The notes below the pieces were generated by a model. The model was not told where the DNA came from, ran no database searches, and saw nothing but the letters and a program-made list of their open reading frames with translations. From NCBI GenBank assembly GCA_945917985.1, contig CAMEIH010000022.1:1-40394 (forward strand): DNA of 40,394 bases, written 5' to 3'. Within the stretch, counting starts at the first letter, position 1, and every line of letters starts with the position of its first letter. Position numbers and translations under genes: made by a program. Positions 1 to 40,394 of this stretch are shown in pieces. Source of the DNA: an uncultured Clostridium sp. GTDB taxonomy: Bacteria > Bacillota > Clostridia > Lachnospirales > Lachnospiraceae.

Positions 1-299
1 ATGCGGATCACCGGCTTTCCTGCCTGTAATCTTTCCAGTATCAGATCTTCTCTTCCGCTCCAGCCTGCGATCAGGATGTCGCTGTCCATGATCAGCTTTC
101 TGCATGCTTCTTCCTCCTCATAAAGGCAAAGCACATAGGGAAGCGCTGCCGCGTCCGGATGCCAGCCCATATCAATGCGCTCCTGTTCCATAGGCTGTGT
201 CTGGATAAAGCAGAAATCATCCGAAAGTTTTTCATAACATGCATTGCAAAACGGAATCTGATGATGATTAATATAATTTGAAATAAAGGTAATGGTCAT
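1..299 (-). CDS. glycosyltransferase, N-terminal part (cut by window edge)
   Basis: The ATG at 299-297 opens a frame that runs off the left edge, giving about 99 residues starting MTITFISNYINHHQIPF. An N-terminal beta strand followed by an N-H-H-Q-I-P-F motif is typical of the first Rossmann half of GT4/GT1-type glycosyltransferases in clostridial polysaccharide clusters (family knowledge). The segment DSDILIAGWSGREDLI fits the end of that half-domain. It begins 2 bases after the stop of the upstream GT4 gene, so the two are almost certainly co-transcribed. The C-terminal donor-binding half lies outside the window, so substrate and exact family cannot be judged. Confidence 0.8.
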   Translation of the reverse strand, partial: MTITFISNYINHHQIPFCNACYEKLSDDFCFIQTQPMEQERIDMGWHPDAAALPYVLCLYEEEEACRKLIMDSDILIAGWSGREDLILERLQAGKPVIR

Positions 300-301
300 A
301 C

Positions 302-1606
302 TTACGCTCCTAGGATATCCCCATAAATCTCAAGAAGTCTCCTGTAATTTGTTTCCCCGTCATGAGCATTCTTCGCCCGCCTTCTTTCGGCCTTCGAAAT
401 TCTCACGGCAAGGGTATCTCCTTCCGCATCCTTCTCCTGCGAAAAAACTTTATCGACAGCCGACGCAAGGTCAGCCGGATTTCCCGTTTCAAACAAGAGT
501 CCCTCACTGCCATCAGTGATCATATCGGGAATGCCTCCCGCTCTCGATGCCACCACGGGCACACCGAGAAGCATAGCCTCACCTACCGTGTTGGGAGAGT
601 TTTCCAGAACAGAAGCGCACACAAAAACATTGGATTTTAAAAACTGCTGCTTCATCTCCTCCTCTGAAAGCTTCCCGAGCATCACCACCCTGTCCTCAAG
701 ATGATAGCTTTTGATCAGCGAAAGCAAATATTTCCCGTAGGCCGGAAGCTTTATCTTCTCTCTTACAGTCTGATGGGAGATCACGCTGTTTCCGGAAACA
801 TAGAGCATGGCATCCGGATATTTTTTCAAAATTTCCGGCATGGCCTGTAAAAGAAAATGAAATCCTTTGAGCGGATAATCTCCCTGTCCCAGAAAAATAC
901 TGTGCTTTTCACAGGCTTCCGGATCCCACATCCCTTCATAAAAGCTGCTTCTCATGGTCTCATTCATGGAATGATAAAGAGCTTTCCCGTTAATCCTGGA
1001 AGTTCCTTCTCTGTCAAATCTCGTTCTTCCGGTAATGTGTCCGGCCAGAGAAATGGCTTCAATTTCATTTTTCCCCCGCAGATAAAATTTTTCCTGCTGC
1101 TGCTTTAAGGAATCTCTCCGAAGGAAGTCCCGGAAAGTAACCTTTCTCTGCACCTCTTCGGGGAGTCCTGCCATATAGACCTTGGCGATCTCATAGCAGA
1201 GTCCCTGAATCCCAACGAGAGTTCTCTCAGGCTTTCCGAATGCTCTCGCCGCCGCAAGGGCATGGGGAAACTCCGTCCCGAAAATATGGATCATATCCGG
1301 CTCTGTCTTCTCAAAGATCTCCCGGAATTCTCTCTCCAGCCCGCTGTCATAAATTTCCGGTGTATCCGGATTTTCATGAAAGCCATAGCACTTTGCCCCA
1401 TTGACCGTAAGACCGGAAAGCAGTTCCTCCTCTTTGGCAGTAAGCTTTCCTATTGGAAAGCAGACCGAAATCTCTATTTCTCCTTTTTTCTCCGTGATCC
1501 TGTCAAAAATACCGGAGAGCCACCCCTCCCTGTTGCTGTAGGGAAGGGAAAGCTTTCTTGCGACAGCCGGAAGCATAATATTGCAAATCCATAAAACCTT
1601 TTTCAT
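302..1606 (-). CDS. GT4-family glycosyltransferase
   Basis: A 434-residue GT-B glycosyltransferase, probably adding one sugar to the lipid-linked repeat unit at the cytoplasmic membrane face. The N-terminal half has the acceptor-domain pattern DMIHIFGTEFPHALAAARAFG. The C-terminal half has the GT4 donor-site signature SVLENSPNTVGEAMLLGVPVV followed by SRAGGIPDMI, with the E-x7-E pattern of retaining GT4 enzymes. The start is set at 1606: the frame stays open to an ATG at 1627, but that ATG has no good ribosome binding site and would overlap the upstream gene. The ATG at 1606 has GGAGAAA about 10 bases ahead, inside the end of the upstream gene. The sugar specificity is not readable. Confidence 0.88.
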   Translation of the reverse strand: MKKVLWICNIMLPAVARKLSLPYSNREGWLSGIFDRITEKKGEIEISVCFPIGKLTAKEEELLSGLTVNGAKCYGFHENPDTPEIYDSGLEREFREIFEKTEPDMIHIFGTEFPHALAAARAFGKPERTLVGIQGLCYEIAKVYMAGLPEEVQRKVTFRDFLRRDSLKQQQEKFYLRGKNEIEAISLAGHITGRTRFDREGTSRINGKALYHSMNETMRSSFYEGMWDPEACEKHSIFLGQGDYPLKGFHFLLQAMPEILKKYPDAMLYVSGNSVISHQTVREKIKLPAYGKYLLSLIKSYHLEDRVVMLGKLSEEEMKQQFLKSNVFVCASVLENSPNTVGEAMLLGVPVVASRAGGIPDMITDGSEGLLFETGNPADLASAVDKVFSQEKDAEGDTLAVRISKAERRRAKNAHDGETNYRRLLEIYGDILGA

Positions 1607-18701: not shown

Positions 18702-18939
18702 TTATTTCCTGAAAGATCAATTCCTGTCTGTATTTCTCTTTAAAATCATCCATTATAATTTCCTTACTCTGTAATTCTATTTTATACCAATCACGCATTA
18801 GCATTTTGCACAAAAAATATTTTATTTTTTCAGAAAATATATACAAAAAAAATTCTTGCACATTCTCCAAAAAAGAGTTAAAACATAATCAACTTCAAAC
18901 GTTAGTAATGCATTGAAAGGGACACATCACCAAAAGAAA

Positions 18940-19186
18940 CTTGATTACAGAGAGCCGTCATATGGTGAAAAACGGTAGAAAGTCTTTTATGTGACATCAC
19001 CCCGGAGCATCCTTCTGAACACAGTAATGCCAGTAGGCAGGGACGTTTTCTCCACGTTACAGGAGAGACTGTTATCAAAGAGAGATGACAGTACTGAGAG
19101 GCTGCAGGTTTTGCAGCAACCAAGGTGGTACCACGGAAAATTCCGCCCTTGCAATTCTTCGGGATTGCAGGGGCGTTTTTTAATAC
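18940..19186 (+). ncRNA. T-box riboswitch (probable isoleucine specifier)
   Basis: Stem I is closed by ATTAC (18944-18948) and GTAAT (19024-19028) and contains the conserved AGAGAG near its base. The specifier region reads GUGAC-AUC-ACCCCGGAGC; by alignment with the usual T-box pattern the codon is AUC at 18996-18998 (Ile), which is an inference. The T-box sequence AAGGTGGTACCACGG lies at 19122-19136. A strong terminator follows at 19144-19181: a long stem capped by a C(UUCG)G tetraloop and a run of U. Uncharged tRNA should pair with the T-box and allow readthrough into the CstA-like gene. Confidence 0.92.
19144..19181 (+). terminator. T-box-controlled intrinsic terminator
   Basis: CGCCCTTGCAATTC pairs with GGATTGCAGGGGCG across a TTCG loop: a 14-bp stem with two G-U pairs, followed by TTTTTT. 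Its 5' part adjoins the T-box sequence, so the antiterminator and this terminator exclude each other. Confidence 0.9.
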
Positions 19187-34232: not shown

Positions 34233-34895
34233 TCATATTATCTGCTTCACAATCCGATAAATCGCTGTACCATCTATCTTGCCAAAAGAATGGAGGGAAT
34301 CAGTATAAAGGCTTTTCCTGCCAACATTCTTTCTGGCTGTTACAAAATCAATAATTTCCGAAGCTCTATTTCCATATTCTGTCCCCAGCAATGCTTCCCT
34401 CAATCTGTTCCTGATCTCATTACGTTCCTCTATTCTTGCATGTTCTGCTGCCAGATCTAACATTGTAGATCTCTCTCGAAGCCTGATTCTTCTGTCTGCA
34501 TCCTCCGATGAACTGAGAGCAACTAAAGCACTTTCAATATTTCCCGCCTTTATCAGGCATACCTCTGACATTGCAGGATTTATCCTAAAATAATCCAGAA
34601 CCGCTTGAAATCCTTTATCATTGCTGATAATAGCCATCTGAGTCTCACCCCGTGCGCTCAAAGCTCCACACTCTGCGGCTATATAGAAATCCAAAGCATT
34701 CTTAGCCGGATTCTTCAGTTTCACAATTCGAAAGTCACATCCCGAAATCTCGATGGACTGCAAATAATCTTTTCTGATCTTTCCGCAGGAATTACTGTAA
34801 AAAATGATCAGTTTGTCATCCTCTTTCAGCGCATCCACACCCTTTAGTCCATTGGATGCAAATACATTTTCGTAATCAATGAGTATCGTTGCCAT
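34233..34895 (-). CDS. NYN/PIN-like domain protein
   Basis: A 220-residue protein. Residues 1-130 match the NYN domain, a PIN-like metal-dependent nuclease fold: ILIDYENVFASNGLKG (Asp7 and Asn10), LDFYIAAECGALSARGETQM and AIISNDKGFQAVLDYF (third acidic position). Residues about 130-220 form a charged helical tail. I choose the ATG at 34895, six bases after GAGGGAG; earlier in-frame starts run into the operator region. It is divergent from an XRE gene over two matching operators and upstream of the AlbA_2 gene. Likely an RNase, target unknown. Confidence 0.86.
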   Translation of the reverse strand: MATILIDYENVFASNGLKGVDALKEDDKLIIFYSNSCGKIRKDYLQSIEISGCDFRIVKLKNPAKNALDFYIAAECGALSARGETQMAIISNDKGFQAVLDYFRINPAMSEVCLIKAGNIESALVALSSSEDADRRIRLRERSTMLDLAAEHARIEERNEIRNRLREALLGTEYGNRASEIIDFVTARKNVGRKSLYTDSLHSFGKIDGTAIYRIVKQII

Positions 34896-34939
34896 TTGCA
34901 TCTCCCTCTTGACTGCATTACCATAATGATATATATTGT

Positions 34940-34976
34940 AACCATCGGTTATTATATAATATATTAACCATTGGTT
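34940..34976. promoter_or_regulatory. pair of operators between NYN and XRE genes
   Basis: AACCATCGGTT (34940-34950) and AACCATTGGTT (34966-34976) are two near-identical dyads (AACC-N3-GGTT), 26 bp apart start to start, about two and a half helical turns. They sit in the 103-bp divergent promoter region and are most likely bound by the adjacent XRE protein. Confidence 0.7.
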
Positions 34977-34998
34977 ATTGTCAATAGGGAGGCCAAAC

Positions 34999-35331
34999 AT
35001 GAATTTTATTCCTGAAAGACTAATTAATTTAAGACATTCTTTGGGTATCAACAAGGCTGAGGCTGCACGCAGACTGAATATGTCTGCCATGGGATATGGA
35101 AGATATGAAAGTGGTGAGCGGGAGCCATCCTATCAAACAGTAGCTTTCATTGCTCAAGCATTTAACAGTTCCATTGAATATTTATATGGTGAAACGGAAG
35201 ACCAAAGAGCTACTGTTCTAACAATCTCCGCCGATGAGGAACCTGAATTATTTTTATTGATACAATCTGTCAGAAATGACAGCGAGTTGCTGAAACGACT
35301 GCTGGCATATACAAATGGTCTGAAGAAATAA
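34999..35331 (+). CDS. XRE-family transcriptional regulator
   Basis: A 110-residue protein. An N-terminal HTH_XRE domain (about residues 5-60: RLINLRHSLGINKAEAARRL, NMSAMGYGRYESGEREPSYQ) is followed by FNSSIEYLYGETED and a C-terminal acidic helix. The ATG at 34999 has GGGAGG six bases ahead; an earlier in-frame ATG at 34978 lacks a site. It is divergent from the NYN-domain gene, and the operator pair between them suggests that it represses both. Confidence 0.87.
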   Translation: MNFIPERLINLRHSLGINKAEAARRLNMSAMGYGRYESGEREPSYQTVAFIAQAFNSSIEYLYGETEDQRATVLTISADEEPELFLLIQSVRNDSELLKRLLAYTNGLKK

Positions 35332-35388: not shown

Positions 35389-37218
35389 CTACACCGCAAT
35401 ATATGCTCCGGCCTGCACCTTCCACATCTGCGCATACTTTCCGTTCTGCTGCAATAGCTCCTCATGGCTTCCCTGCTCCACGATCTGACCGTTTTCCAGC
35501 ATAATGATGCGGTCTGCAAGTCTGGTGGTTGACAGTCTGTGGGAAATGAAGATAACAGACTTGTCTCTGGTTGCTTCCATCATTGCATGATTCAGCTGGT
35601 ATTCCGCGATCGGGTCAAGTGCACTGGAGGGCTCATCCAGGATCATAAGACCTGCATTCTTGTAGAACACTCTCGCAATCGCCAGCTTCTGACTCTCCCC
35701 ACCGGAAAGGTTCACACCTTCCTTGGAGAACTCGGTGGTGAGCTGGGTATCCAGACCTGCTGGGAGCGCATTCACTCTGCTGATCAGGCCACTGTCGGTA
35801 AGTGCCTGCCTGATACGCGCCTCGTCGCCGCATTCCTCCACGTTCAAGATAACATTTTCCTTTATATTTCCGCCAAAAATCTGGAAATCCTGAAATACCG
35901 TTCCGATGGTGCCTCGATATTTCGCAACATCGTATTTTCTGATATCCGTTCCGTCTGCAAGAATCTCCCCGGATTTCACATCACAAAGCCTCATGAGAAG
36001 CTTCACCAGCGTCGTCTTGCCTGCGCCGTTGTAGCCGACGAGTGCGATCTTCTCTCCCGGTCTGATATGAAGGTCAATCTCTTTTAAAAGCATATCACAC
36101 CTGTCGCCATATGCAAAGGACACCTTCTTAAGCTCAATATCTTTTGCCTGATCAGAAGGAATAAGCCCTTCCTCTGAGGTAATTTGCGGCTGATAATCCA
36201 GGAACTTCCTGATCCTGCTCACGTAGAGACTGGTCTCACTGGCAAAAGGATATACATCCGTAAAGATACGCATTCCTTCCTTCATCCGTCCAAAGGAATT
36301 GTATAAAATCGCAACCGTACTGAAGGAAAGGGTTCCCCGGACTGCTGCCTGAAATACCAGATAAGAGATATACAGCACATCACCAAACATGGCATTACTT
36401 ACATATCTTCTTAAAAATCCAAGCAGGAATTTGCGGTTGGCATATTTCTTTTCCACCTGGTATACTTCTTTGTTGGCCTCCTCAAAACGCTCAAAGAGAA
36501 TGTCGGACACATCCGGATTCAGCCTGATTTCTTTTGCATAATCATTTAAGTAAAAGATTCTCTTTACATAATCTCTCTTTCTGGAAAAAGGAATACTCTC
36601 AATCCTCACCAGATAATTCAGCTTGTTGTACATCTGATTGAACACAAAGGAAAGCACAAAGGATGCTGCCGCAAAAATAATGGATACTTTGTCTTTCATC
36701 AAAAAGTAAATACCCGTAGAGACAAATACCGTAATTCCTGCCAGGGTATTCTGTATGAACTGGATTCCCCTGTCGATCTGCTTATCCACTTCGGAAATGG
36801 CAAGAACCTGATCATTATAAAATTCAGGATCATCGTAACAGGCAAGATCCAGCTCCTTTGCCTTCTCATAAAGCATCAGCTTGATCTTCTGACGGATCTT
36901 CGGCTTCTCTTTTTCCCCGAGATAATCTCCCACAATGACCGTAAAGACCATCCCAAGCTCGATGCATGCCGCCAAAATCAAAATAACGAATGCTACCTTT
37001 TTAAAAGGGTAATTAAATTCTGCAGCCTCCAGCACATATCCGATCCCCACTGTATGCTCAAAGAAAATGGACAGCTGTCCCCTCACAGCATCAATAGCCA
37101 TAAAAATAATATAGGAAGGCGAAGCTGTAAACATCAGTTTCAGCAAAAAGAAATTGTTGCCGAACACTTCTTTTACGGACTGCTTCGTCTTTTCTTTTTC
37201 GTTGTCTGTCTTTTTCAC
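35389..37218 (-). CDS. ABC exporter half-transporter 2 (membrane + ATPase)
   Basis: A 609-residue fused half-transporter. Residues about 30-330 hold the six-span exporter domain, residues about 365-600 the nucleotide-binding domain: Walker A GYNGAGKT, signature LSGGESQKLAIA, Walker B LMILDEPSSALDP with catalytic Glu, and H-loop ISHRLS. It begins with GTG at 37218 overlapping the TGA of the upstream half-transporter (GTGA), after GAGGAGG, so translation is coupled. The two halves probably form one heterodimeric exporter of drugs or peptides. Both ATP sites look intact, unlike the many heterodimers with one dead site. Confidence 0.92.
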   Translation of the reverse strand: MKKTDNEKEKTKQSVKEVFGNNFFLLKLMFTASPSYIIFMAIDAVRGQLSIFFEHTVGIGYVLEAAEFNYPFKKVAFVILILAACIELGMVFTVIVGDYLGEKEKPKIRQKIKLMLYEKAKELDLACYDDPEFYNDQVLAISEVDKQIDRGIQFIQNTLAGITVFVSTGIYFLMKDKVSIIFAAASFVLSFVFNQMYNKLNYLVRIESIPFSRKRDYVKRIFYLNDYAKEIRLNPDVSDILFERFEEANKEVYQVEKKYANRKFLLGFLRRYVSNAMFGDVLYISYLVFQAAVRGTLSFSTVAILYNSFGRMKEGMRIFTDVYPFASETSLYVSRIRKFLDYQPQITSEEGLIPSDQAKDIELKKVSFAYGDRCDMLLKEIDLHIRPGEKIALVGYNGAGKTTLVKLLMRLCDVKSGEILADGTDIRKYDVAKYRGTIGTVFQDFQIFGGNIKENVILNVEECGDEARIRQALTDSGLISRVNALPAGLDTQLTTEFSKEGVNLSGGESQKLAIARVFYKNAGLMILDEPSSALDPIAEYQLNHAMMEATRDKSVIFISHRLSTTRLADRIIMLENGQIVEQGSHEELLQQNGKYAQMWKVQAGAYIAV

Positions 37219-39041
37219 AGCTTCACCTCCTCCTCATTTTCCAGAGCCAGATAATTCATGGCCTGCTTCTTATACATCTGCGCATAACTGCCATTTGCAG
37301 CCATCAGTTCACTGTGCGTTCCCTCCTCGATCAGGTGCCCTTTCTCCAGCATGAACACCTTGTCACAGTTCTTTACGGAAGAAAGCCTGTGAGAAATGAA
37401 CAGCATCGTATGGTCACTTCCCTCTTTCATGATATTTTGGAACAATTCATACTCCGCGATGGGATCAAGGGCACTGGACGGTTCATCGAATATCTTCATG
37501 GGCGCATCCTTGACAAAGGTCCTTGCCACGGCAATCTTCTGGCTCTCGCCGCCGGACAAAACCGCCCCATCCTCATCAAATTCCTTTGTCATCATGGTAT
37601 CAATCCCCTTTTCAAGGGATGAGACCTTCTCATACACGCCTGCCTTTTTCAGCGCCTCTATGACAAGCTCCTCTTCCTTTTCATAATGCCTTCCCATCAA
37701 TACATTCTCTTTGATGGTCATTCCAAACATCTGAAAATCCTGGAAGGTAGTGGCAAACAGCTCCCGGTATGCCTTCAGATTGTATTCCCTGATATCCCTT
37801 CCGTTGTAAAAAATCGTTCCCGAGGTAGGGTCGTATAATCTGAGAAGAAGCTTGATAATCGTTGTTTTTCCTGCGCCGTTGTGTCCCACCAGGGCCGCCG
37901 TCTGCCCTTTTGTGATCACAAAGGACAGATCCTGAATGGTCTGCTCATCCTTGTAAGAGAATGATACCTTTCTGAATTCAATACTCCGGAATTCTTTCTC
38001 CGGCATATCGCCGTCCTGATCCTCCGGAATTGCTTCCTCATACTCAAGAAAACCGCGGAGATTGTTGATAAACACACCATTTTTCAGGATTTCCATAATA
38101 CTCTCAAACACTCTGATCAGGATCCATGTCATTGCCACCATGAGACTGGTCATAATCGTCAGCTGCGCCAGTGTAATTGATCCCGTCACCTGTTTTCTGT
38201 AGATGGCATACAAAAGGACACCTTCAAAAATCACCGTGAACGTGAAAGTGATTCTCCAGAAGCTCAGGCTGGCATTGGCAAACGCATACTTGACCGCGAT
38301 CCTGACGTTGCGATCCGTTGCCTCCCGATACTGCTTTTTCATAAGAGAAAAAACCTCTGAAAGCCTGATTTCCTTTGCCCCATCGGGAAGGTACATCATA
38401 CGGCTTACATAATTGAGCACTTTCTCATTTGGTGCCTGTTCCTGATAACGTTTAAATTCATATTTGTTTTTCAGATTGCCAAACACAAAGTTTCCCAAAA
38501 GCGGCGAAATGATAAACAACATAGCATAATGGTCTATTTCATACATAAACCAGAAAACTACTACCGCACTGACAGAGCCGATCACCGTACCCAGGATACC
38601 CCTGATGATCGCGGTAACCTTTTCCTCCGCCCCATCCATTGCCATGGTATAGCGGTTGTAAAAATCAGAGTCCTCATAGCACCGAAGCTCCACGTTTTTT
38701 GCTTTTTCGTAAAGTTTCCTGTAAATACCGCCAAACAGCCTGTTTGTTTCCAGCGGATACACCACATTCTCCACATAATTTGTATAAACGGAAGCAGCAC
38801 AGAATGCCACCCCACTCAACAAAATAAACAGAAAGATCGGGCGAAAACCCCGTCCCTGATCCAGTGCATCCACTATCTTTCTCATAAAAATTCCGTCGAA
38901 GAATACCCACTCGCAATATCCCACAAGCCAAAGGAAAAACGAGTGTATGACAATGCTCTTGCTGATGGATGATCCCAGTGCAAGCGCATACCAGGCATTC
39001 TTCAGTGTCTCTTTCAGAGACAGCTTATCCTTCTTTTCCAT
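37215..39041 (-). CDS. ABC exporter half-transporter 1 (membrane + ATPase)
   Basis: A 608-residue half-transporter with the same layout as its neighbour. Nucleotide-binding motifs: Walker A GHNGAGKTT, signature LSGGESQKIAVA, Walker B MKIFDEPSSALDP, H-loop ISHRLS. The membrane part carries six spans and no peptidase (C39) domain, so it is not a leader-cutting bacteriocin exporter. The ATG at 39041 lies 17 bases inside the end of the GNAT gene, with GGGGG about 12 bases ahead. Part of the GNAT-ABC-ABC operon. Substrate unknown; context suggests antibiotic or peptide efflux. Confidence 0.92.
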   Translation of the reverse strand: MEKKDKLSLKETLKNAWYALALGSSISKSIVIHSFFLWLVGYCEWVFFDGIFMRKIVDALDQGRGFRPIFLFILLSGVAFCAASVYTNYVENVVYPLETNRLFGGIYRKLYEKAKNVELRCYEDSDFYNRYTMAMDGAEEKVTAIIRGILGTVIGSVSAVVVFWFMYEIDHYAMLFIISPLLGNFVFGNLKNKYEFKRYQEQAPNEKVLNYVSRMMYLPDGAKEIRLSEVFSLMKKQYREATDRNVRIAVKYAFANASLSFWRITFTFTVIFEGVLLYAIYRKQVTGSITLAQLTIMTSLMVAMTWILIRVFESIMEILKNGVFINNLRGFLEYEEAIPEDQDGDMPEKEFRSIEFRKVSFSYKDEQTIQDLSFVITKGQTAALVGHNGAGKTTIIKLLLRLYDPTSGTIFYNGRDIREYNLKAYRELFATTFQDFQMFGMTIKENVLMGRHYEKEEELVIEALKKAGVYEKVSSLEKGIDTMMTKEFDEDGAVLSGGESQKIAVARTFVKDAPMKIFDEPSSALDPIAEYELFQNIMKEGSDHTMLFISHRLSSVKNCDKVFMLEKGHLIEEGTHSELMAANGSYAQMYKKQAMNYLALENEEEVKL

Positions 39042-40008
39042 TTTTGTTTTTTACCCCCACTCTCTCATCAATTCTTCTGATAAATGAATATGTATATGGT
39101 TCAAAATATTTTGTCCAGAATCGGAGCGCTGTAGGATTGATCGTTTCATAATCAACCCCCAGATAGCTCTTTCCTTCCTCCATGCATCTTTTTGCCATTG
39201 CATCGAGAAGCTGCTTTGCCACTCCTTGCTCTCTATATTTCTCCAAAACATATGCACCGCAAATATTGCTTATGTCCGTTCTTTCGGTGAGAAACGTTTC
39301 CGCCTCGTCATCGATTGCCATAAAGCCTGCAAGTTTCCCTTCGTATCTTGCCGCAAAAACTTTTATCCCGTCGTTTTGCAGCCATCTTTCGGTGTCCCCC
39401 TCCGAAGTAGGTAAAAAGCATGGACTCTTTGCCAAATGGTCTGCCAATTTCTCATGCAGTTCTTTCATCTCCCATTTATCTTCTCCCACCAGCTCTTCCA
39501 TCACAATCGCCGAATCCTCCGCATCATACCCATAATCCTGTAAGGACAAAACCGCATCCGAACATCTGATTCCGAAACCATTCAGGCATAAAGATTTATT
39601 TACTTCTTCATTGTTCGCATATCTGCTTATGGCAATACTGAAAATCTTATCCTGTACCAGTTCTTCCGCTACCGCTTCCAAAAGAAGTGACGCTGTTTTT
39701 CCTCTTTCTTTTCCGGCAAAGGCGCTTGCTCCCAGCGGGGAAAACACACCCTTTCCCTCTCCGTGGAAGCCTTCCCACGGTCCGAAAAAGGCCAGAAAAC
39801 CTACCAGCTTATTCTCCGAAATCATTGCTTTTCCGTATGGCGCACCTTTTACATTATGAATGATATTTGTGAGCATTTCTTCCATGCTCCGATCCATAGG
39901 CGGCATACACTTTACCTTGTTCATCTCTTCCACATATTCCTGCTTACAAAGAGCCACCGCTTCCTCAGTATTCATATCTTTTACTTCAATCATTTCAAAC
40001 ATTTTCAA
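39025..40008 (-). CDS. tandem GNAT-family acetyltransferase
   Basis: A 327-residue protein with two acetyltransferase-like halves. The N-terminal half (about 1-150) has AMISENKLVGFLAFFGPW and SAFAGKERGKTASLLLEAV. The C-terminal half (about 200-315) is a better GNAT: KLAGFMAIDDEAE, then ICGAYVLEKYREQGVAKQLLDA (acetyl-CoA loop) and GVDYETINPTALRFWTKYF. Only the second half has a convincing cofactor site. The ATG has AAAAGGAGAG ahead. First gene of the exporter operon, downstream of the leader peptide and terminators. It may acetylate a toxic compound that the exporter also handles (inference). Confidence 0.86.
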   Translation of the reverse strand: MKMFEMIEVKDMNTEEAVALCKQEYVEEMNKVKCMPPMDRSMEEMLTNIIHNVKGAPYGKAMISENKLVGFLAFFGPWEGFHGEGKGVFSPLGASAFAGKERGKTASLLLEAVAEELVQDKIFSIAISRYANNEEVNKSLCLNGFGIRCSDAVLSLQDYGYDAEDSAIVMEELVGEDKWEMKELHEKLADHLAKSPCFLPTSEGDTERWLQNDGIKVFAARYEGKLAGFMAIDDEAETFLTERTDISNICGAYVLEKYREQGVAKQLLDAMAKRCMEEGKSYLGVDYETINPTALRFWTKYFEPYTYSFIRRIDERVGVKNKNGKEG

Positions 40009-40092
40009 TTCTCTCCTTTTCTTTTTTCGTTCCCGGAGATATCAAGTCGCGTATAATCCGCATCAGGCTTTTCTATAAAAAGCAGGAAAAGC
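40009..40092. other. gap between leader terminators and GNAT gene
   Basis: Eighty-four bases with a ribosome site AAAAGGAGAG before the ATG. On the minus strand a weak -35/-10 pair can be drawn (TTTATA, 18 bases, TATACG), so a separate promoter for the operon is possible but not convincing. Confidence 0.4.
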
Positions 40093-40123
40093 AAAAAAAG
40101 CCAGGGACACAAAATCCCTGGCT
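40093..40123 (-). terminator. second leader terminator
   Basis: In minus-strand RNA AGCCAGGGA-UUUUGUG-UCCCUGGCU is a 9-bp perfect stem followed by six more U. It stands 85 bases before the GNAT gene and 23 bases after the first terminator. Confidence 0.85.
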
Positions 40124-40139
40124 CAATCATTTTAAGCAC

Positions 40140-40172
40140 AAAAAAGTCGTGACACCGAATTGATACCACGAC
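40140..40172 (-). terminator. first leader terminator
   Basis: In minus-strand RNA GUCGUGGUAUC-AAUUC-GGUGUCACGAC forms an 11-bp stem (three G-U pairs) followed by six U. It starts 13 bases after the leader-peptide stop. Its left arm GGUAUCA can pair instead with UGAUUACC inside the leader peptide frame. Confidence 0.82.
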
Positions 40173-40185
40173 GAATGCACATCAC

Positions 40186-40260
40186 TTATTTGCAAATCTC
40201 CGAGGTAATCATCATTATTGTTGTTTTACTGTTTAAATTTGTTCTCTTCATTTTTGTCAT
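40186..40260 (-). CDS. 24-residue leader peptide upstream of exporter operon
   Basis: ATG at 40260 to TAA at 40186 encodes a 24-residue peptide starting MTKMKRTNLNSKTT, continuing IMMITSEICK. It has a near-perfect ribosome site (AAAGGAGG, nine bases ahead) and a consensus promoter, and two terminators follow. The peptide is basic, has no signal or membrane segment, and matches nothing I know. The combination of short frame, strong translation start and terminators in front of resistance-type genes is that of a ribosome-mediated attenuator (as known for the B. subtilis bmrB leader of the BmrCD exporter). It could instead be a free signalling or toxic peptide. Confidence 0.65.
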   Translation of the reverse strand: MTKMKRTNLNSKTTIMMITSEICK

Positions 40261-40273
40261 AGTTGATTACCTC
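40202..40273 (-). promoter_or_regulatory. long-range inverted repeat sequestering the leader ribosome site
   Basis: In minus-strand RNA GAGGUAAUCA (40273-40264, containing the ribosome site) is perfectly complementary over 10 bases to UGAUUACCUC (40211-40202), which lies late in the leader frame. The same UGAUUACC can also pair with GGUAUCA of the first terminator, so the segments compete. Confidence 0.65.
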
Positions 40274-40294
40274 CTTTGTCATAAATTTGAATTA

Positions 40295-40323
40295 ATGGTA
40301 ACATATGGGTTGAATAATGTCAA
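40295..40323 (-). promoter_or_regulatory. promoter of leader/exporter operon
   Basis: Minus-strand TTGACA (40323-40318), 17-base spacer, TACCAT (40300-40295) with an extended -10 TGT just ahead. The transcript should start near 40288, about 28 bases before the leader ATG. Confidence 0.7.
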
Positions 40324-40394
40324 CAATGAAAGTCGACACGCAGCTCCGAAAGGTAAATTCTATTCTATGCCTGCCAGTTTTTTGAAATGTGTGT

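Follow-up and report, generated by a model that had tools for sequence, protein, structure and literature searches.

The window, by which the whole analysed stretch of 40,394 nucleotides from an uncultured Clostridium sp. of Lachnospiraceae is meant, carries close to its end a minus-strand operon, in which the gene of a GNAT acetyltransferase of 325 aa (39025..40002; PF00583, 1.1e-13, for the residues from 39993 on) is followed by the gene of an ABC exporter half of 608 aa that overlaps it (37215..39041) and by that of a second half of 609 aa that overlaps the first (35389..37218). The start of the GNAT gene, corrected in relation to an earlier note on this DNA, is most likely the ATG at 40002, with GGAGAG (40011..40016, minus strand) as its ribosome site, since this start is in register with the orthologue at L016, a locus of a Lachnospiraceae MAG, which is 77% identical and was the sole GNAT orthologue found. 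The solved-structure matches of the window GNAT are weak (best E 9e-4) and it has no BLASTP similarity to the GNAT-containing proteins of the loci L141 and L139 described below, therefore no substrate is proposed for it. Both exporter halves (35389-39041, minus strand) keep the Walker A, LSGGE, DEP and SHR motifs; the BmrCD-type heterodimers have one degenerate site. Downstream of the operon, an HTH_3 frame (34978-35331, plus strand) overlaps a PIN7 frame (34233-35090, minus strand) on the opposite strand.

Upstream of the GNAT gene there lies a leader (all positions on the minus strand) that begins with a sigma-70-type promoter TTGACA(40323)-17-TACCAT(40295), occupying 40295..40323, matching the consensus at 10 of 12 positions and having TG ahead of the -10 box. 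It is followed by a leader ribosome site GGAGGTAATCA (40264..40274; arm 1, which in its pairing with the late segment is the putative anti-antiterminator), with the sequence GGAGGTAAT at 40274, and by a reading frame of 24 codons (40186..40260) with the ORF translation MTKMKRTNLNSKTTIMMITSEICK, whose late segment TGATTACCTCGGAGAT (40196..40211; arm 2) has three potential partners, namely the leader ribosome site, the 5' arm of the first terminator and an element D. Two intrinsic terminators, each with a T run, stand between the frame and the GNAT gene: T1 (40140..40172, stem 40172-40146), whose 5' arm CGTGGTATCA is arm 3 and whose stem begins 13 bases 3' of the leader stop codon, and T2 (40092..40124, stem 40124-40098). 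Thus, the consensus promoter, the 24-codon frame with a strong ribosome site and the two terminators ahead of the GNAT gene, as read in the earlier note, are all in place. Counted on both strands, the region 38500-40394 has 6 terminator-like sites versus 1.5 (sd 1.2) in shuffles, and the 280-nt leader folds better than its shuffled versions (z -2.93), 2 of 200 of which are equally good. Farther upstream of the promoter nothing is visible, as only 71 bases separate the -35 box from the contig end at 40394.

The ribosome-site stretch GAGGTAATCA (40273-40264) is exactly complementary to TGATTACCTC (40211-40202) of the late segment, which gives the ten perfect pairs claimed beforehand, and, in 1000 dinucleotide shuffles of the window sequence alone, only one was equally good for the 5' part including the ribosome site against the late segment. 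The other pairing that the earlier note had proposed, of the late segment with GGUAUCA in the left arm of T1, is also present, GGTATCA meeting TGAT(T)ACC with one bulged base, but in the window alone it is not clearly beyond chance, being equalled in 91 of 1000 shuffles for the T1 5' arm region. The element D CGCGACTTGATATCTCCGGGA (40031..40051), missed by the earlier note, is a possible second layer hiding or freeing the GNAT ribosome site: its UCUCC (40039-40035) can cover GGAGA of that site, while the leader sequence CUCGGAGAU can take UCUCC away, so that the switch may act on both transcription and translation. The pairing of the late segment was equalled in 18 of 1000 shuffles for the region from T2 to the gene and in 99 for that from T1 to the gene; by these counts, the ribosome-site pairing alone is clearly beyond chance in the window, and the support for the antiterminator and D pairings comes from the sequence comparison among members of the family set out below.

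The folding of the window RNA with the early part of the frame masked, suggested in the earlier note as a check, gave the predicted switch for stalls at codons 1-12 and none at codon 16. Unmasked, the leader ribosome site is predicted to pair with the late segment at a probability of 0.98-0.99 and T1 to form at 0.97, and D is expected to share 7.9 pairs with the GNAT ribosome site. With a ribosome on codons 1-12 and the 3' arm of T1 not yet made, 9.6-9.7 antiterminator pairs are expected, and, with T1 complete, its probability falls to 0.42 (stall at codons 1-2), 0.10 (codon 5), 0.06 (codon 9) and 0.03 (codon 12). In the long RNA with early stalls, about 11 pairs join the late segment to D, leaving D 0.2-0.3 pairs with the GNAT ribosome site, while at a stall on codon 16 T1 returns to 0.97 and the site is covered again by 7.0 pairs. 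When T2 is included in the fold, the T1 probabilities in the same early-stall states rise back to 0.88, 0.39, 0.29 and 0.17. No antiterminator or competitor of T2 was found in the window, and the weak point conceded from the beginning, that of a second terminator with no obvious antiterminator, still holds.

Relatives of the leader were sought in samples of 397 genomes of the family to which the window belongs, 392 of the order and 391 of the class, the membership of all 30 members found being decided by eye: 24 loci in 24 of the 397 family-sample genomes (a lower bound for the genomes with a member in this family), one of the order sample and five of the class sample. The DNA search with the leader in the family sample matched 15 of 397 genomes, among which script scan and reading confirmed members at the matched place in the window and G349 only. 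The latter (locus L118) is the one clear DNA homologue, with a 24-codon leader MTKMKKSFYQNLIKHMITSKKYQK, T1 and a T2-like stem, yet it stands before an RsgA gene. The two-arm pattern matched 7 of 397 family-sample genomes, of which five had members, G122, G129 and G370 being gained, while the matches in G083 and G078 were not members on scan or reading; in the order sample it matched 8 of 392 genomes with two members, the window and G711. The order-sample matches L119, L127 and L129-L131 were not accepted, having an R1 score of 19.3 bits or none (L119 was also read), and L126, covered as its matched string only, was likewise not accepted. The covariance model R1, built from the window, G349 and G129, was run on the family sample with a limit of E 1 and under filters that miss weak matches, and found 46 places, distributed over 41 of the 397 genomes; 30 places were read, 22 of them accepted, each in a different genome, and eight (L148, L154-L160) rejected, so that these 22 together with G122 and G370 make up the family total. 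The model R2 of ten members, mostly bearing the leader peptide motif EY...TS, gave 33 places in 30 of 391 class-sample genomes at E up to 0.1, whose strong matches (below 1e-10; 7 places in 6 genomes) all fell in the window's own family. L163-L167 were accepted, L162 proved to be L135 again, L168-L175 were rejected upon reading, and the R2 membership count excludes L176-L191 and three places without a locus, including a strong second place in G520. G264, the sole other genome of the window's genus in the samples, gave no match in the leader DNA search or with R1.

A leader frame of 20-37 codons ending before a terminator was detected by script in 24 of 25 members and by eye in L161, the leader ribosome site of L147 being poor; 18 of the 25 have a TTGAC-type promoter-like match upstream, and in four none was found by pattern. 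No Rfam family matched the window leader or the leaders of 20 other loci at the gathering score, the best sub-threshold score for the window leader being 24.3 bits against a cutoff of 90; the sole Rfam match at gathering score within the window is a T-box leader at 18904-19153 (plus strand). In the plasmid and phage collections no relative of the GNAT protein was found at E 1e-5, and the leader gave short matches only at E up to 1 (8 and 2 records, respectively); the plasmid collection had no relative of the exporter half 1 at E 1e-80. In viral contigs the arm pattern occurred in 101 stretches, with no member among the short frames printed by the ribosome-site script scan, and the T1 pattern gave none.

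The genes behind the 30 members are mixed. RsgA alone follows the leader in 12 (L118, L122, L136, L142, L144, L145, L146, L153, L164-L167), and in three it is fused with GNAT in a single frame: L141 (1782-3149), L150 (2-1411) and L163 (1-1440). A GNAT gene is found in four (L139, L140, L147 and L135, the last counted by eye as a short frame like the others, without a Pfam hit), GNAT with the ABC pair in the window only, an ABC exporter in seven (L120, L124, L138, L143, L149, L151, L152; most truncated where the locus ends), and the P-loop protein PF09818 'ABC_ATPase' in two, L128 (1688-3061) and L161 (1767-3167). At L137, a transposase-like frame with unread bases follows the leader (203-1351, minus strand), adjoined by a RAGATH-18 RNA match. 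In each of the eight genomes checked for an RsgA pair (G349, G129, G221, G236, G073, G042, G047, G039; two strong loci each), a second RsgA with a higher PF03193 score is encoded elsewhere, hence the leader-linked RsgA is regarded as a paralogue. No ABC-F protein was found among the scanned genes (GNAT, ABC exporter, RsgA, GNAT-RsgA and PF09818).

The covariation of the competing arms, also named beforehand as a check, was found. In the R1-fitted alignment of 24 members, which was fitted to the tested structure and so leans towards it, 92.3% of cells are paired versus 84.6% in shuffled alignments, and 36 cells are changed on both sides versus 11.4, neither value being reached in 500 shuffles; the stem of T1 covaries, as does the pairing of the leader ribosome site with the late segment, the latter also in the partner swaps. 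These swaps, in which arms were exchanged among members, are free of the alignment bias for the antiterminator and D pairings, because both pairings are in no search model. In a set of 17, in which each cluster had one member, selected according to the gene behind it and the resemblance of the leaders, the pairing of leader ribosome site and late segment reached -14.1 versus -11.4 kcal/mol for exchanged arms (0 of 20000 swaps equal to the true partners), the late segment and T1 5' arm -10.4 versus -8.8 kcal/mol (3 of 20000), and the late leader and D region -21.6 versus -17.2 kcal/mol (0 of 20000). For the same three pairings, the corresponding counts were 0, 2 and 0 of 20000 with 29 members and 15, 8 and 3 of 20000 with the 11 that remained after the EY-leader group had been removed. 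Earlier swaps of 25 members with the first arm borders had given a P of 5e-5 for the ribosome-site pairing and one of 6e-4 for that of the antiterminator, L120 having been added by hand, as R1 did not align the whole of it; L137 was omitted from the D, folding and 17- and 29-member swap tests on account of its transposase-like frame.

Most members retain a U-U or U-C mismatch in the core of the antiterminator, ACCUCGG against CCGUGGU; this may prevent the T1 5' arm from acting as a ribosome site and allow T1 to prevail finally. In G711 the reading frame of the conserved ATTACCTC is a different one (LLPR, not ITS), and in L161 so is that of the late segment (LPR), so that it is the RNA, not the peptide, that is conserved there. 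As to the orthologous loci, in which conservation had been looked for, the expectation was borne out in part: the arms are kept, but at loci of other genes, while the only GNAT orthologue found, that of L016, has no leader frame or ribosome site upstream and no ABC genes nearby. T1- and T2-like stems persist there with shortened T runs (L016:5880-5990), possibly as a decayed attenuator.

Across the members, D is the segment between T1 and the main gene that is complementary to the late leader. In the minimum-energy folds, by reading, it also pairs with the main ribosome site in 10 of the 24 members shown (the window, L139, L140, L141, L142, L144, L145, L147, L150 and L153), and in L122 and L135 this complementarity was seen by eye only. 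When the leader ribosome site is masked before the T1 3' arm is made, antiterminator pairing is predicted to rise by more than two pairs in 20 of 24 members and to fall by as much in none (p 8e-7), the mean going from 3.0 to 7.6 pairs; L149, with hardly any antiterminator (-2.3), does not gain. In the equilibrium folds of the complete T1, release of the late segment cuts T1 by more than 0.2 in three of 24 only (the window, L128, L151; overall p 0.21), therefore elsewhere the switch would have to be kinetic. The covariation and predicted folds support mutually exclusive anti-antiterminator, antiterminator and terminator structures, with this equilibrium result as the reservation. The predicted access to the main ribosome site, with main starts and ribosome sites assigned by hand or simple match, increased by more than 0.15 in 11 of 24 members and decreased in two (L124, and L118 as borderline) with a longer free segment, at a p of 0.015 that is optimistic since this segment was picked post hoc, after pairs farther upstream had been seen; with the shorter segment, before the start codon of L144 was corrected, it was up by more than 0.2 in three and down in two (p 0.24).

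From the anatomy, the arm-to-partner covariation across members and the predicted switching in the window, all of which were computed, the leader is probably a ribosome-sensing attenuator, part of a family spread in this bacterial family, whose late segment picks among three partners. With no ribosome early on the frame, which is presumably translated, the late segment would pair with the leader ribosome site, T1 would form and transcription would stop, T1 being taken to terminate in cells; a ribosome that completes the frame normally would cover the late segment, with the same outcome. A stall within approximately the first 12 codons, for which a ribosome-targeting antibiotic is the presumed signal, would hide the ribosome site and free the late segment, which could then capture the T1 5' arm ahead of the synthesis of the 3' arm and let transcription continue, presumably past T2 by some further means. 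In the read-through RNA, the late segment would take D, otherwise able to cover the GNAT ribosome site, and translation would be released too, provided that D works in cells as in the folds.

The part played by D is where a different explanation has most weight, although it is unlikely on balance: attenuation of transcription only, with D having no role and its complementarity reflecting an anti-ribosome-site sequence common to the members. The modest predicted effect on ribosome-site access (11 of 24 up and two down, the first version of the test not being significant), the weak D pairing in G349/L118 (-11.9) and L163 (-7.8), and the 18 or 99 of 1000 shuffles that match D in the window alone would all agree with it. 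Shared sequence alone, however, is not expected to make the leaders prefer their own D region, as they do in the swaps (0 of 20000 with 17 and with 29 members, 3 of 20000 with 11), and D-leader pairs changed on both sides were seen by eye, GAATATCT/AGATATTC in L135 versus GAATATGT/ACATATTC in L146. The three-partner attenuator is retained as the preferred reading.

It also competes with two readings that leave out ribosome sensing of this kind, both very improbable. The six threonines and four methionines among the 24 codons of the window leader would suit an amino-acid-sensing leader responding to charged threonine or methionine tRNA, but this composition is not kept across the members, amino-acid genes are absent downstream, where acetyltransferases, exporters and RsgA paralogues are encoded instead, and no T-box or riboswitch matches the window leader in Rfam, so that the amino-acid-sensing and T-box readings were rejected. 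Slightly less probable still, T1 and T2 could be ordinary terminators of an upstream unit, the short frame could be due to chance, and the GNAT operon could have its own promoter; the contig end 71 bases upstream of the -35 box, which hides the upstream neighbour, and the GNAT gene of L016 that stands without a leader leave some place for this, whereas the recurrence of the same arrangement, with covarying arms and a conserved frame, ahead of unrelated genes speaks against it and for the attenuator.

The conserved attenuator design is known in kind, while its target genes are an unusually mixed set. It is conceivable, and put forward here tentatively as a proposal with slightly more against it than for it, that one portable RNA switch, its T1 5' arm mimicking the ribosome site of the leader and, in many members, its late leader mimicking that of the main gene, has become joined to no fewer than four unrelated protein families in this bacterial family, and that it defines a translation-stress regulon including a second, resistance-type RsgA, the GNAT-RsgA fusions and the PF09818 ATPase of unknown function. 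If so, the switch would serve as a sequence handle for genes turned on upon ribosome stalling, e.g., by antibiotics, with the second RsgA above all, and also the GNAT-RsgA fusions and PF09818 ATPases, as resistance candidates, and its many natural variants would be material for studying the three-partner choice in what may be a dual transcription-translation attenuator. Among the titles and opening parts of abstracts covered by the literature searches, subscription papers being mostly outside this scope, there is no description of this attenuator family or of RsgA so controlled, and the covered parts of the motif surveys PMC8632094 and PMC11109978 contain no such family.

Among the known systems compared, the closest mechanisms are those of vmlR and cplR, with bmrB and hflXr related. 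The leader of vmlR in Bacillus subtilis, in which stalling on a short upstream frame has been proposed to release both levels, likewise has an anti-antiterminator, an antiterminator and a terminator, as well as a hairpin by which the main ribosome site is partly sequestered; it differs by its tripeptide frame MIN with a single-stranded ribosome site, whereas here the frame has 20-37 codons and the leader ribosome site is itself the putative anti-antiterminator, and by controlling an ABC-F gene, unlike the genes behind the present switch (PMC9226507). The cplR leader of Clostridioides difficile, induced by retapamulin and lincomycin, shares the short upstream frame with anti-Shine-Dalgarno elements, the premature terminator and the hidden main ribosome site, and its authors found stalling to be essential and premature termination not; however, its frame is MRI, its main ribosome site is hidden by the very stem of the terminator, a role for which a separate D is proposed here, and it serves one ABC-F gene instead of several gene types (PMC10201436). 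The attenuator before the resistance-type HflX-like protein hflXr (rli80) of Listeria monocytogenes also has a short frame, and its protein is comparable to the RsgA paralogues here, but the frame has 14 codons with an RLR motif and the protein is a different one (PMC6310831); the uORFC-6-1 motif, found computationally before hflX, is similarly an upstream-frame motif, but mostly of Bacillales, with an RLR motif and a structure wholly downstream of the start codon (PMC8632094). The parallel first drawn, with bmrB ahead of the BmrCD exporter genes of B. subtilis, which is induced by chloramphenicol, erythromycin and lincomycin, holds for the leader peptide and alternative stem-loops before a two-gene ABC exporter, and is looser than those with vmlR and cplR; the 53-codon bmrB frame contains its terminator, whereas both terminators here lie 3' of the stop codon (PMC4191407). 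ABC-leaders in general have been described in a survey of premature terminators (PMC2965389).
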